Origin: Pelagibacterales bacterium SAG-MED48
GTDB taxonomy: Bacteria; Pseudomonadota; Alphaproteobacteria; Pelagibacterales; Pelagibacteraceae
NCBI GenBank assembly: GCA_014653375.1
Contig: JACWEP010000003.1
Coordinates: 1-64,000, forward strand
DNA: 64,000 bases
Direction of reading: 5' to 3'
Both the position numbers and the translations under genes were made by a program. Below the pieces are notes generated by a model that worked only from the letters and a program-made list of their open reading frames with translations, had not been told where the DNA came from and did no database searches. How positions within the stretch are numbered: position 1 is the first letter of the stretch; every line of letters begins with the position of its first letter. This document shows positions 52,618 to 57,453 of this stretch, in pieces.

Positions 52618-53412
52618 ATGTTAGAGACAAATCCATTTTCTATATTAGCAGAGACGGTATCTCCTTTTGCTATGCAAAGTTTTATAATTGCAATGATTTT
52701 ATTGATTGCATTTGGAACGATAATTCAAATGATACATCATAAAAATCTGACATATTTCTTAAACAATGCAAAAAAAGCAAAACTTCAGGCAACTAGAGAA
52801 ATTGGTACTGGAGAGAGAGTATCTATATTAGCTAAGACAGCAGTTGTTGATATTGGAACTACAGCTGAACTAGGTTTTGGAAAAAGAAGATTATCTCATG
52901 TGCTAGGAATGTATGGAACAATCATATTCTGGGTTTCATCAGCAATGTTGGTATTTTGCTATACTGGTGCAGATAAATCATCATCTACAATTTGGTCAAT
53001 GTTATGGCATGCAGGAGCAATTTTAACTTGTATAGGTGGATATTGGTTTTGGTTTTTTTTAAGAGTAGATGTTTCAGCTGAAGCTCATCCTTGGTACAGA
53101 ATTATTAAAGCAGATTTATTCGTTTTAGCATTGTTGGCTTGTTCTACTTTTGGGTTAGCTTGGTCATATGCTCAATTTAATGGTCAAGTAGGACTATCAT
53201 TTTTATTCTTAACATTATTTGTCACTGCAAATTTGGTGTTATTTGGTGGTGTGTACTGGTCTAAATTTGCACATATGTTTTATAAACCAGGAGCTGCAAT
53301 ACAGAAAAATTTAGCTGAAGCTGATGGATCAAGAGATAACCTTCCGCCACCAGCAGATGTGCCTGAGCAATTTGGCCTAGGTATAAAAAGAGAAGAGCCA
53401 AAACATTATTAA
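52618..53412 (+). CDS. aprM: Membrane anchor of adenylylsulfate reductase (AprM)
   Basis: A 264-residue protein with about six helices. It has an N-terminal anchor, a cytoplasmic loop with basic residues, and histidines in RLSHVLGMYGTIIFW and SMLWHAGAILTCIGGYWFW that could be haem or quinone ligands. It lies 31 bases upstream of aprB. In SAR11-type apr loci this position is held by the AprM anchor linking the enzyme to the quinone pool. The assignment relies mainly on context. Confidence 0.78.
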   Translation: MLETNPFSILAETVSPFAMQSFIIAMILLIAFGTIIQMIHHKNLTYFLNNAKKAKLQATREIGTGERVSILAKTAVVDIGTTAELGFGKRRLSHVLGMYGTIIFWVSSAMLVFCYTGADKSSSTIWSMLWHAGAILTCIGGYWFWFFLRVDVSAEAHPWYRIIKADLFVLALLACSTFGLAWSYAQFNGQVGLSFLFLTLFVTANLVLFGGVYWSKFAHMFYKPGAAIQKNLAEADGSRDNLPPPADVPEQFGLGIKREEPKHY

Positions 53413-53443: not shown

Positions 53444-53914
53444 ATGTCAACTTTTGTATACATGACTAGATGTGATGGCTGTGGTCATTGCGTAGATATT
53501 TGCCCATCAGATATAATGCACATTGATGAAAATATAAGACGTGCAAAAAACATTGAACCTAACTTTTGTTGGGAGTGCTACTCATGTGTTAAAGCTTGTC
53601 CAAATCATGCTATTGATGTTAGAGGGTATGCTGATTTTGCTCCAATGGGACATAGTGTTAGAGTAAGACGTGAAGAAGAAAAAGGAACTATTTCTTGGAA
53701 AATTAAGTTTAGAAATGGAACCACAAAAGATTTTGTTTCTCCAATTACAACAAAACCTTGGGGAAAATTTATTCCAAAACTTGCTGAGGGTGACAAACCT
53801 AATCAAGGTGAAATTAACTCACAAAGATTATACTCTGAACCTGAAGGTTTAAATATTGATGGCGAGCTACCAGTAGTACCTAAAGATTCATTTAAAAAAG
53901 GAGTTTACTACTAA
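53444..53914 (+). CDS. aprB: Adenylylsulfate reductase subunit beta
   Basis: A 156-residue iron-sulfur protein with two 4Fe-4S motifs, CDGCGHCVDICPSD and CWECYSCVKACPNH. The C-terminal extension (YADFAPMGHSVRVRREEEKG) wraps the alpha subunit in known structures. It carries electrons between AprA flavin and the membrane anchor. The aprA start overlaps its last base. Confidence 0.95.
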   Translation: MSTFVYMTRCDGCGHCVDICPSDIMHIDENIRRAKNIEPNFCWECYSCVKACPNHAIDVRGYADFAPMGHSVRVRREEEKGTISWKIKFRNGTTKDFVSPITTKPWGKFIPKLAEGDKPNQGEINSQRLYSEPEGLNIDGELPVVPKDSFKKGVYY

Positions 53915-55773
53915 TGGCTAAGCACAAAACTCATTACGAAGATTGCGATGTTCTAGTTGTTGGTGGCGGTATGGCTGGAACTGGTGCTACTTTTGAAGCT
54001 AGGCACTGGGGTAGAGATATGAAGATTATTTGTGTTGAAAAAGCTAATATCGACAGAAGTGGAGCAGTTGCTCAAGGTCTTTACGCAATTAACTGTTATA
54101 TGGGAATGCAGTGGGGCGAAAACCAACCAGAAGATCATGTAAGATATGCAAGAAATGATTTAATGGGAATGGTTAGAGAAGATTTAGGTTACGATATGGC
54201 CCGTCACGTAGACTCAACAGTTCATATGTTTGATGAATGGGGTCTTCCAATGATGAAAAATGAAGAAACTGGTAGATACTTAAGAGAAGGTAAGTGGCAA
54301 ATCATGATACATGGTGAAAGCTACAAACCTATTGTTGCAGAAGCAGCAAAAAAATCAGCAGATAAAATTTATAATAGAATTATGATCACTCATCTTTTAA
54401 TGGATGAAGCTCAAGAAAATAGAGTAGGTGGAGCAGTAGGATTTAACATGAGAACAGGTGATTTTCATGTGTTTAGAGCAAAAGCTGTAATAGTTGCAGC
54501 AGGTGGAGCTTCTCATATATTTAAACCAAGAGCTGTTGGTGAAGGAATGGGAAGAACTTGGTATGCCCCATGGAGTAATGGCTCAGCTTATGCTTTACCG
54601 ATTGCTGCTGGAGCTAAAATGACCCAAATGGAAAATAGAATTGTATTATGTAGATTTAAAGATGGATATGGACCAGTTGGCGCTTATTTCCTACACTTAA
54701 AAACTTATACCCAAAATGCGAATGGTGAAAACTATGAGAAGAAATGGTATGATCAAACTAAAGAGTTAGTTGGAGAATATATAGATCATCACCCAACACC
54801 AACTTGTCTTAGAAATCACGCTTTTATTCAAGAAACTATGGCAGGTGGTGGACCAATTCATATGGTTACAACTGAAGCTTTTCAAGACCCACATTTAGAA
54901 ACTGTTGGTTGGGAAAACTTCTTAGGAATGACTGTTGGACAAGCAGTAGTTTGGGCATCACAAAATATTGATCCAAAATATACAAACCCAGAATTAACAA
55001 CTTCTGAGCCATATGTAATGGGATCACATGCAACTTGTTCAGGTGCATGGGTTAGTGGTCCTGAAGATTTATCTCCACCAGAATATTTCTGGGGTTATAA
55101 CAGAATGCTTACTATTGATGGGTTATTTGGTGCAGGTGATACTGTTGGTGGAAGTGCTCATAAATTTTCATCAGGTTCATTTACAGAAGGTAGACTAGCT
55201 GCAAAAGCTGCAGTTAAGTATATTGAGGATAAAAAAGCTGAAGGTTTAAAAGTATCAGATAAACAGTGCGAAGATTTTAAAGAACAAGTCTTCAAACCAT
55301 TAGAGACATACACTGTAGCTCAAAATGAAATTACTGGAGGAACAGTTTCTCCAAGTTATATTTCACCAATTCAAGGTTTACAGCGTTTACAAAGAATTAT
55401 GGACGAATATGTAGGAGGAATAGCTACTAACTATATGACTAATGCTAATATGCTTAAAAGAGGTTTAGAGCTTTTAGCTTGGTTAGAAGAAGATCTTGAA
55501 AAGGTAGGTGCTGAAGATTATCACCAGCTAATGAGAGCTTGGGAGCTCAAACATAGAGCTATTACTTCCCAGTGTGTTACTGAACATACTATGTTTAGAG
55601 AAGAAACTAGATGGCCTGGATATTACTATCGTGGAGATCACATGAAACTAGATGATGATAATTGGCATTGTTTAACAGTTTCTAGAAGAGATCCTAAAAC
55701 AGGCAAATTTAGTATGGAGAAAGTTCCCGTCTATCATATTGTGGATGAGAATGAGAAGAAAAAAGCCTCTTAG
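53914..55773 (+). CDS. aprA: Adenylylsulfate reductase subunit alpha
   Basis: A 619-residue flavoprotein: the FAD motif VLVVGGGMAGTGATFEARHW, RSGAVAQGLYAINCYMGMQW and the FAD-contact GAGDTVGGSAHKFSSGSF. It interconverts APS and sulfite plus AMP. In an aerobic heterotroph beside sulfite-releasing enzymes, the direction is probably sulfite oxidation. No sat gene is seen nearby to turn APS into sulfate and ATP. Confidence 0.96.
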   Translation: MAKHKTHYEDCDVLVVGGGMAGTGATFEARHWGRDMKIICVEKANIDRSGAVAQGLYAINCYMGMQWGENQPEDHVRYARNDLMGMVREDLGYDMARHVDSTVHMFDEWGLPMMKNEETGRYLREGKWQIMIHGESYKPIVAEAAKKSADKIYNRIMITHLLMDEAQENRVGGAVGFNMRTGDFHVFRAKAVIVAAGGASHIFKPRAVGEGMGRTWYAPWSNGSAYALPIAAGAKMTQMENRIVLCRFKDGYGPVGAYFLHLKTYTQNANGENYEKKWYDQTKELVGEYIDHHPTPTCLRNHAFIQETMAGGGPIHMVTTEAFQDPHLETVGWENFLGMTVGQAVVWASQNIDPKYTNPELTTSEPYVMGSHATCSGAWVSGPEDLSPPEYFWGYNRMLTIDGLFGAGDTVGGSAHKFSSGSFTEGRLAAKAAVKYIEDKKAEGLKVSDKQCEDFKEQVFKPLETYTVAQNEITGGTVSPSYISPIQGLQRLQRIMDEYVGGIATNYMTNANMLKRGLELLAWLEEDLEKVGAEDYHQLMRAWELKHRAITSQCVTEHTMFREETRWPGYYYRGDHMKLDDDNWHCLTVSRRDPKTGKFSMEKVPVYHIVDENEKKKAS

Positions 55774-55792: not shown

Positions 55793-56143
55793 ATGGATAT
55801 TTTATCAAAAAACGATGATGAGATATATGAACTAGCCAAGCCCATTTGGGATAATTTGGTTAGATCATCTAATTTGAAGGATTATGGTGGATTTACTAAA
55901 GATTTTTCAACACAAATGTTATTTGGAGCCAATGAAGTAGAGCTTGGCAAGCAGTGGGCTAATAATAAAATCATCACCAATCTAAAAGAAACATTTGAGC
56001 CATTTGGCTGCCTTAGACGAGGAATTCATGTCACTGTTTTAATTAAGCAGACCAATAAAGAAATCTCAGGAGAGTTTTTGGGTAGGCTTGTACTTGGCGT
56101 TGAAGATGATGTCGTTAAAGTATTTGGAGCTACAATTTACTAA
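55793..56143 (+). CDS. Uncharacterised protein downstream of aprA (116 aa)
   Basis: A soluble 116-residue protein without signal or membrane segment. The N-terminal half is helical (DDEIYELAKPIWDNLVRSSN). The second half is beta-rich, with CLRRGIHVTVLIKQTNKEIS and GEFLGRLVLGVEDDVVKVFG. It has a single cysteine. I recognise no family. It follows aprA by 19 bases on the same strand and is probably co-transcribed, so a role in sulfite or APS chemistry is plausible but unproven. Confidence 0.7.
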   Translation: MDILSKNDDEIYELAKPIWDNLVRSSNLKDYGGFTKDFSTQMLFGANEVELGKQWANNKIITNLKETFEPFGCLRRGIHVTVLIKQTNKEISGEFLGRLVLGVEDDVVKVFGATIY

Positions 56144-56210: not shown

Positions 56211-56345
56211 ATGCACCTCTCAAATATAAAAATCATAAATAAAATCATCGAAGCAAAAGCAGCTATAATAAAAACAGGTATATTTATGAGCCTTGCTGCT
56301 TATTGGGGTGTTATTTTAGTTGGAACTTTTATCACATTTAACTAA
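56211..56345 (+). CDS. Small membrane protein between apr and tauE (44 aa)
   Basis: From ATG 56211: MHLSNIKIINKIIEAKAAII, then KTGIFMSLAAYWGVILVGTF and ITFN. An amphipathic N-terminus precedes one hydrophobic helix. No clear ribosome-binding site is seen, and no family is recognised. It occupies an otherwise empty 230-base interval. Confidence 0.45.
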   Translation: MHLSNIKIINKIIEAKAAIIKTGIFMSLAAYWGVILVGTFITFN

Positions 56346-56373: not shown

Positions 56374-57453
56374 ATGGAAGTATTTTTACCCATAGCTCAA
56401 GTCTTTATTAATCCTATTGAAATACTTTTATTAAGTGCAATTGTTGGAGTGCTATCTGGTTTGTTTGGTGTAGGAGGTGGTTTTTTAATGACGCCTTTTC
56501 TAATTTTTTTAGGTGTACCCCCTGCATATGCAGTTGCAAATGAAGCTAATAATATTTTAGCAACATCAGTATCAGGATCTACAACTCATTATTTAAAAAA
56601 TACACTAGATTATAAAATGGGCTTTATGATTGTAATAGGTGGCACAATTGGAACCGCTTTAGGAATTTATACTTTTACATATTTTAAAGGGATAGGAAAG
56701 ATAGATACAGTAATTTCATTAGCCTATATGTATATATTAGCAATTATTGGTACCCTCATGTTGGTAGAAAGTCTTAGAGAAATAGATAGAGAAAAAAGAA
56801 ATCTTGTAGTTAAAAAAAAATTACATGTTCACTATTGGATACATGGTCTACCACTAAGAATGAGATTTCCAAAATCAAAATTATATGAAAGTATATTTAC
56901 ACCAATTTTAATAGGTTTGTTGGTAGGATTTATTGCAGCAATTATGGGAATAGGGGGTGCTTTTATTTTGGTGCCTGCGATGATTTATATTATTAAGATG
57001 CCAACAAGATTAGTTCCAGGAACTTCTTTATTTGTCACAATTTTTGTAAGTGTCATTGTTACTTTTTTGCATTCATTTAATTATGGTTCAATAGATTTAT
57101 TGTTAGTTCTTATGTTAGTAATTGGATCAATTGTAGGTGTTCAAGTAGGTCAAAAACTTGGTGAAAAAATTGATAGTTCTGGTTTAAGAGCATTGCTAGC
57201 AATCTTGTTATTAGTTGTTGGTATCGCTATTGCATATGACACTTTTTTCGCAGAACAAATTCAAAAAGAAATAATTAGTGTATCAAACTCGGATTTAAAC
57301 TTTTTCTCAACATTTATTATAGAATTTTCTAAAGACATGCCATTCTTTTATGGATTATTTTCAATTATGTTCGCTATATTTTTAGGAGTTGCGGCAGCTT
57401 TTATCAGACGCTTTGTATCAAACTTCAAGAAAAAAATGTTATTACAATCTTAA
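56374..57453 (+). CDS. TauE/SafE family putative sulfite exporter
   Basis: A 359-residue protein with about nine helices and the family's repeated glycine motifs VGVLSGLFGVGGGFLMTPFL and VGFIAAIMGIGGAFILVPAM. TauE/SafE proteins are implicated in exporting sulfite or sulfoacetate. Its position between aprBA and suyAB/xsc supports a sulfite role. Confidence 0.88.
   Translation: MEVFLPIAQVFINPIEILLLSAIVGVLSGLFGVGGGFLMTPFLIFLGVPPAYAVANEANNILATSVSGSTTHYLKNTLDYKMGFMIVIGGTIGTALGIYTFTYFKGIGKIDTVISLAYMYILAIIGTLMLVESLREIDREKRNLVVKKKLHVHYWIHGLPLRMRFPKSKLYESIFTPILIGLLVGFIAAIMGIGGAFILVPAMIYIIKMPTRLVPGTSLFVTIFVSVIVTFLHSFNYGSIDLLLVLMLVIGSIVGVQVGQKLGEKIDSSGLRALLAILLLVVGIAIAYDTFFAEQIQKEIISVSNSDLNFFSTFIIEFSKDMPFFYGLFSIMFAIFLGVAAAFIRRFVSNFKKKMLLQS

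Follow-up and report, generated by a model that had tools for sequence, protein, structure and literature searches.

A 116-residue protein with a predicted NTF2-like fold is inherited with the aprM-type APS reductase in SAR11 and other bacteria

The window, the 64,000-nucleotide stretch of SAR11 DNA analysed here, carries an open reading frame for a protein of 116 amino acids, named X116, directly behind the APS reductase gene aprA, and the question that this locus raises is what such a protein does next to the enzyme. Lineage-I APS reductase is the form found in SAR11, one of the dominant groups of ocean bacteria, and in purple sulfur bacteria. According to the available portion of one report, SAR11 lacks the assimilatory genes and sat, and AprBA was proposed to detoxify sulfite (PMC5069961). 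The literature, as far as its accessible text goes, gives the gene set as aprMBA, sometimes with sat; what is new here is the near-constant presence of X116 and, outside SAR11, of a SlyD-like gene. No paper naming or describing X116 was found in a search largely limited to papers available without subscription.

The X116 gene and its locus

The genes of the locus are arranged in the following order, the name aprM being that used in the accessible parts of PMC2211403 and PMC3779200.

52111-52509, + strand: HIT-family protein (PF01230, E = 1e-18)
52618..53412, + strand: aprM, membrane protein encoded 5′ of aprBA (42-47% identity to genes upstream of aprBA at six non-SAR11 loci)
53444..53914, + strand: aprB, beta subunit of APS reductase, a ferredoxin-like protein carrying two 4Fe-4S motifs (NCBIfam TIGR02060 above the cut-off; PF12139)
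53914..55773, + strand: aprA, APS reductase alpha subunit of the aprM-type or lineage I clade (NCBIfam TIGR02061, 988 bits; AprA tree)
55793..56143, + strand: X116, 116-amino acid putative NTF2-like accessory protein, the main subject (ORF, alignment, model and structure matches)
56211-56345, + strand: ORF of 44 codons in the interval from X116 to the tauE-like gene, with one hydrophobic stretch recognized by eye
56374..57453, + strand: candidate sulfite exporter of the TauE/SafE type, given as context only (PF01925, E = 1.5e-46)

The X116 reading frame starts with the ATG at 55793 and ends with a TAA at 56143. The end of aprA at 55773 leaves a gap of 19 bases on the same strand, as the initial annotation had described, and a consensus scan detected no terminator-like site in it. 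Among 150 SAR11 loci with both genes the median aprA-X116 distance is 21 nt, measured with the start set 116 codons before the stop and with some genomes counted twice. The alignment of 30 diverse SAR11 members has 116 columns and no internal gaps, with 58-93% identity to the window protein; one member (L138) is without its first residues at a contig end. The dN/dS ratio relative to the window has a median of 0.018 and a maximum of 0.035 in the seven usable pairs of 149, i.e., those with dS between 0.05 and 1.5, the remaining pairs lying beyond that range; this set consisted of 150 sequences including the window, all from loci where X116 has 116 amino acids. X116 is confirmed as a real, strongly conserved gene and not a chance ORF. 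Of 473 relatives in the genome collection, the 80 listed are Pelagibacterales/Pelagibacteraceae records.

The genes on both sides of the locus deserve a brief description. The HIT gene ends 108 bases upstream of aprM in the window, and a HIT gene on the same strand within 600 nt of aprM was found at 80 of 114 loci with aprM, many of which are close relatives. Since SAR11 has been reported to be without sat (PMC5069961, available portion), an APS-splitting HIT enzyme would be a candidate for APS turnover. Relatives of the 44-codon ORF are present at 118 loci, and its product is possibly a small membrane protein. The tauE-like exporter adjoining the locus would fit sulfite handling in SAR11.

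Distribution of X116, aprM and the SlyD-like gene

Co-occurrence in SAR11 was determined in two overlapping samples of 147 genomes each. The family sample includes X116 in 66 genomes and aprA in 67, both in 65 and neither in 79; the numbers for the order sample are 109, 108, 107 and 37, respectively. In the single family-sample genome counted as X116 without aprA (G318), the contig begins within aprA, the remaining piece of which ends just upstream of X116, and in G199, counted as having both, the aprA piece and X116 are located at different contig ends. The one order-sample genome with aprA and no X116 (G401) has its aprA cut by a contig end before the 3′ end, and in the two with X116 and no aprA (G420 and G393) X116 lies 166 and 195 bases from the contig start, so that an aprA located there would have been cut off.

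The only family-sample genomes with aprA and no X116 are G230 and G309, in which aprMBA is intact, X116 is missing, and the next gene after aprA is a different one, dienelactone-hydrolase-like in one genome and xsc-like in the other, both named by eye. Their aprM, aprB and aprA products show 60-87% identity to those of the window. As the two AprA proteins form one supported pair in the tree (100/98), a single loss explains both cases, and the retention of aprMBA indicates that X116 is dispensable at least there. The loci of the two genomes are L184 and L185, and in L185 the xsc-like gene lies 30 bases past aprA.

Outside SAR11, a profile of SAR11 X116 sequences matched 17 of 398 genomes of the phylum. 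Eleven of them have apr-type X116 (the window's own genome, nine with complete copies and one with a fragment) and six gave weak matches with E values of 1e-7 to 1e-20. At E = 1e-80, aprA was detected in 41 of the 398 genomes, including all 11 of the apr-type group and none of the six with weak matches; the genome with the X116 fragment (G536) has a single aprA match, which lies on a different contig and has a score like those of the other AprA clade described below. The window aprM matched eight of the 40 other aprA genomes, X116 being present in all eight, and it matched none of the 30 aprA genomes of this sample that lack X116. The apr-type genomes with no aprM match are G590 and G536, whose X116 contigs end inside or before aprA. 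Screening 48 genomes of the class of G506 yielded seven X116 matches, all already in the phylum-sample set. A search of 190 genomes of the window's class with the single X116 sequence was too insensitive and returned only its own genome; the profile found X116 in two further genomes of that class.

A sample of 270 genomes from the order of G777 gave 16 strong X116 matches (15 new ones and G777 itself) and five weak ones. This sample was screened by X116 only, a design in which aprM-type loci without X116 would go unseen. All 15 new strong loci have the order aprA-X116-SlyD-like, and aprM is within the stretch in 14 of them, the stretch of the other (L239) beginning inside aprA. Taken over the 25 non-SAR11 loci, the order is aprM-aprB-aprA-X116-SlyD-like, with aprA directly upstream of X116 in 24, at distances of 7-377 nt, and the 25th (L178) cut by a contig end. 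An ATP sulfurylase gene is found in the same stretch at 13 of the 25 loci, in varied positions. In these samples, the close homologues of X116 outside SAR11 were found only at aprM-type apr loci.

These results agree with the tree of AprA proteins, in which rows shorter than 500 amino acids were left out. Its 40 rows fall into an aprM-type clade of 28, which includes the window AprA, and another clade of 12, separated by a long branch with 100/100 support. Placed on this tree, X116 requires two changes, of which the first falls on the branch leading to the aprM-type clade and the second is the loss in the pair G230 and G309. For the other clade, 12 genomes were chosen as the source of its 12 rows, ten of the 30 without X116 together with G444 and G506. 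The latter two have AprA of both clades, and X116 is located only beside the aprM-type copy. No X116 or SlyD-like frame was detected in the 12 stretches around other-clade AprA genes, namely those of the ten genomes and of the second copies in G444 and G506. The position of the window aprM, directly upstream of aprBA, matches the lineage-I definition in the accessible text of PMC2211403, which distinguishes two Apr types in sulfur-oxidizing bacteria, lineage I with aprM and lineage II with qmo. A qmoC family search of 48 genomes, the window's own not among them, gave no match anywhere, controls included, and a Pfam search with ten chosen proteins, nine of them encoded near aprA of the other clade, gave no decisive match for a qmo link of that clade.

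X116 is thus tied to aprMBA: it is inherited with AprA of the aprM type and was not detected beside AprA of the other clade. The close association suggested in the initial annotation is borne out by these data, and the check proposed there, whether X116 always accompanies the aprM type, came out positive with one derived SAR11 exception, that of G230 and G309.

Outside SAR11 the association extends to a further gene. The gene directly downstream of X116 encodes, at all 25 non-SAR11 loci, a SlyD-like prolyl isomerase/chaperone of about 170 residues. Compared with a profile built from eight of these proteins, all gave E values of 1e-76 or better. Compared with the PDB structure of SlyD (2k8i), the profile aligned over positions 6-157 of 170 with an E value of 1.3e-21, a match that covers the FKBP part and the inserted flap and therewith nearly the whole chain. 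All eight members matched NCBIfam PRK10737; the one score shown, 67.1 bits, is below the equivalog cut-off of 174 bits, and for this reason the protein is named SlyD-like and not SlyD. The spacing from X116 to the start of the profile match is 15-32 nt at 21 of the 25 loci (range, -2 to 120). A SlyD-like frame was absent from the window and from the SAR11 loci examined, a result that holds for the loci only, and likewise from the two SAR11 loci without X116 and one further stretch. The pair formed by X116 and the SlyD-like gene is consequently not universal.

A comparable arrangement may exist in Allochromatium vinosum, whose sat-aprMBA genes (Alvin_1118-1121) encode a lineage-I Apr (PMC3779200, accessible part) and share the aprM-B-A core with the X116 locus. 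In the available text of PMC11267869 the Apr group is described as suppressed on pyrite and Alvin_1122 is listed as a 'conserved hypothetical protein' with a value of -2.73 on pyrite; the same text names neither Alvin_1118-1121 nor Alvin_1123. By its position as the next locus tag, Alvin_1122 is a candidate X116 homologue.

Fold and conserved residues of X116

X116 had been described as lacking a recognized domain, and indeed it gave no match to Pfam or NCBIfam up to E = 10. A Pfam search with 30 X116 members produced chance-level matches only, the best at 0.028, and searching PDB sequences returned one chance match with the single sequence and none with the profile. Among the phages searched, the SAR11 query gave two chance-level matches (E values of 1 and 6); a non-SAR11 query gave 17 pattern matches and no relatives in the viral contigs searched, and none in the plasmid collection searched, these absences and that in the PDB holding for the collections used.

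The AlphaFold2 model built from 30 rows has a mean pLDDT of 91.5, a pTM of 0.83 and no residue below 70. It consists of helices at residues 8-27, 31-34, 40-43 and 48-56 (37 residues) followed by strands at 69-76, 79-88, 94-104 and 107-115 (38 of the 116 residues), in accordance with the half-helical, half-beta layout proposed before. The predicted protein would also be soluble, as had been suggested, judging from the model and from a sequence with no hydrophobic stretch of membrane length. The best solved structures found with Foldseek are NTF2-like proteins, the best E value being only 0.0036. VIA-align gave a best Z of 10.2, with Z values of 8 or more for 383 of the 1000 chains compared, and among the best 50 of the 1000 the Z values are 8.9-10.2 over 96-111 residues at 4-16% identity, many of the top entries being titled NTF2-like or cystatin-like. 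Against a viral structure library the model matched nothing at E = 0.001, and a few NTF2-named proteins appeared. KSI, scytalone dehydratase, LinA, the CaMKII association domain and part of PBP2a are among the structure matches, and these proteins are known for the NTF2 fold.

The model thus assigns X116 with confidence a cone-shaped alpha+beta, NTF2-like fold. Like members of that superfamily such as SgcE6/SgcJ (4i4k/4ovm), KSI, NTF2 (1ar0) and 2rgq, the model has helices followed by a four-stranded sheet; it differs from them in having no Pfam match, in the 4-16% identity and in its genomic tie to APS reductase. The absence of a Pfam match does not exclude X116 from the NTF2-like superfamily. 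Homodimer formation through the sheet is common among NTF2-like proteins, though not universal. As the fold is known and no sequence-family match was obtained, X116 is a new protein family, with respect to the libraries used, with a known fold. A clear match to an unrelated family, which would have spoken against the proposed association, was not obtained by sequence, and NTF2-like folds span enzymes, subunits and regulators, so that the fold fixes no function and does not favor a chaperone.

Residue conservation was determined from 135 apr-type rows, all from loci where X116 has 116 amino acids; 111 rows are from SAR11 (110 distinct sequences), and the window sequence occurs twice, leaving one fewer distinct sequence than rows. 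Twenty-three positions show conservation of 98% or more, including Trp19, Ser26, Asn27, Tyr31, Phe34, Gln54, Gly72, Arg75, Arg76, Thr81, Gly93, Leu96, Gly97, Arg98, Leu99, Gly102, Phe111 and Ala113. Cys and His are not found among the 23, and Cys73 of the window protein is replaced by Thr, Met or Ile in other members.

Homologues at 15-38% identity were examined in ten of 11 cases, a weak match in G953 being the one left out, and none has apr genes in its stretch. The initial annotation had named homologues widespread without apr genes as evidence against its proposal; this is not the case for close homologues, although distant ones lacking apr genes in their stretch exist, as members of an uncharacterised wider family. 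Fifteen of the 23 conserved positions are present in at most two of the ten distant proteins. Ser26, Arg75, Arg76 and Gly93 are common to nine or ten of them, Arg76 being found in 135/135 apr-type rows and in 10/10 distant homologues, and Trp19, Thr81, Arg98, Gly102 and Phe111 are present in none. Positions 31, 34, 98 and 111 are occupied in the apr-type set by Tyr (135/135), Phe (135/135), Arg (135/135) and Phe (134/135), where the distant homologues mostly have His (6/10), His (7/10), Glu (8/10) and Asp (8/10). Judging from the strand register of the model, positions 98 and 111 would lie on one face of neighboring strands, and a rebuilt pocket is for that reason possible. The distant homologues (L177, L179-L183 and L244-L247) occur in varied settings, for example beside a BLUF photoreceptor gene in L179, and the L181 copy contains an interrupting stop.

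Possible roles of X116

X116 is probably a helper that the AprM-type APS reductase needs for its building or its working. The initial annotation had offered an assembly factor, a sulfite-binding regulator or an electron-transfer accessory, and the first of these fits the data best. There is about an even chance, in our judgment, that X116 is a dedicated assembly or maturation factor for the lineage-I AprBA(M) enzyme, a reading favored by the narrow tie to one branch of the enzyme, the retention of the enzyme where X116 was lost, and the neighboring chaperone gene. X116 would then be an NTF2-fold protein, soluble and cytoplasmic, that attaches to AprA or AprBA soon after their synthesis, assists cofactor insertion or docking to AprM, and departs again. 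The SlyD-like protein would act in the same step outside SAR11, and in SAR11 this step would be done without a SlyD-like gene at the locus. SdhE and SdhAF2 are small soluble assembly factors dedicated to SdhA, a flavoprotein related to AprA, and SdhE is all-helical. The likeness of X116 to them would lie in the proposed working only, that of a small soluble factor for one flavoprotein/Fe-S enzyme; membership in the SdhE/SdhAF2 family was considered and rejected because 38 of the 116 X116 residues are in strands. SlyD of E. coli and Helicobacter pylori has metal enzymes and Fe-S biogenesis proteins among its interaction partners, and in E. coli lacking SlyD two Fe-S regulators still mature (PMC10653786, available text). 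The contact of SlyD with Fe-S biogenesis reported there fits the assembly-factor reading indirectly.

The location directly behind aprA, the near-perfect co-inheritance and the fixed length could also describe a third soluble subunit that stays with the lineage-I APS reductase permanently and either gives the complex its shape or connects AprBA to AprM; this is the main rival of the assembly factor. The 23 positions kept at 98% or more, most of them scarce in the distant homologues, would suit such a protein. Ring-hydroxylating dioxygenases offer a precedent, as their beta subunit has the NTF2 fold and is encoded beside the catalytic subunit; X116 would resemble it in both respects and one PDB match, 3b8l, is titled putative aromatic ring hydroxylase, although no sequence similarity to X116 was found. 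Several facts make a subunit rather unlikely: aprM, aprB and aprA were kept when X116 was lost in G230 and G309, the spacing of X116 to the SlyD-like gene is smaller than that to aprA at all 24 non-SAR11 loci with both distances, and the lineage-I enzyme is given as AprBA plus AprM only in the accessible text of PMC2211403 and PMC3779200. A stable subunit predicts the same genetics as an assembly factor, and only biochemistry separates them. A role centered on a small molecule of the pathway, in which the NTF2-type pocket of X116 would bind or convert AMP, APS, sulfite or FAD and X116 might, for instance, pass AMP or FAD on to AprA or protect APS, draws on the invariant Arg76 and on the exchange at positions 31, 34, 98 and 111, since aromatic and Arg residues could suit a nucleotide; we consider it unlikely, as no known binding motif is present and the chemistry of AprBA requires no additional enzyme. 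A combination of these ideas, doubtful in our opinion, is a two-part loading machine in which X116 with its rebuilt pocket would carry an adenine nucleotide, whether FAD, AMP or APS, to AprA and the SlyD-like isomerase would fold the chain, SAR11 having kept the carrier with no isomerase at the locus.

The remaining two proposals can be given little weight. The soluble pocket fold predicted by the model and the shift of SAR11 aprB and aprA transcripts with sulfur status, described in the available part of PMC5069961, would be compatible with a sulfite- or APS-sensing regulator of AprBA or its genes; such a regulator is very improbable, given a model that consists of one small domain with no recognized DNA-binding part and a tie to one enzyme type, not to aprA in general. 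As for electron transfer, the acceptor of lineage-I AprBA is described in the accessible parts of PMC2211403 and PMC3779200 as unknown or only postulated, a point in favor of such an accessory. The lack of Cys and His among the 23 positions is evidence against an electron carrier, the variation at Cys73 points in the same direction, and the protein matched no domain, those of flavin, haem and Fe-S families included, so that this function is hardly credible. The assembly factor remains the preferred reading; X116 may matter for producing the lineage-I enzyme elsewhere, and it offers a direct means of testing the assembly of AprBA and its joining to AprM.

Two further observations concern the partners of AprA. 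AprM has invariant His residues at positions 40, 94, 219 and 263 across 16 sequences. In NCBIfam it has weak matches, to TcuB (0.0016) and QmoC (0.017), that fall far short of the cut-off; its model (pLDDT of 77.6) has no significant structure match, NarI chains appearing with probabilities of 0.57-0.84 and E values above 0.5. AprM may be more than an anchor, namely a haem b quinone module. Near aprA genes of the other clade, a gene for a protein with a CxxCxxCC metal-chelating domain (PF03692) was observed at L198:7650-8561, L199:8187-9161, L202:8291-9193 and L205:4126-5079, being the next gene behind aprA in L198, L199 and L202, and its product is possibly a parallel accessory protein for the other AprA type.
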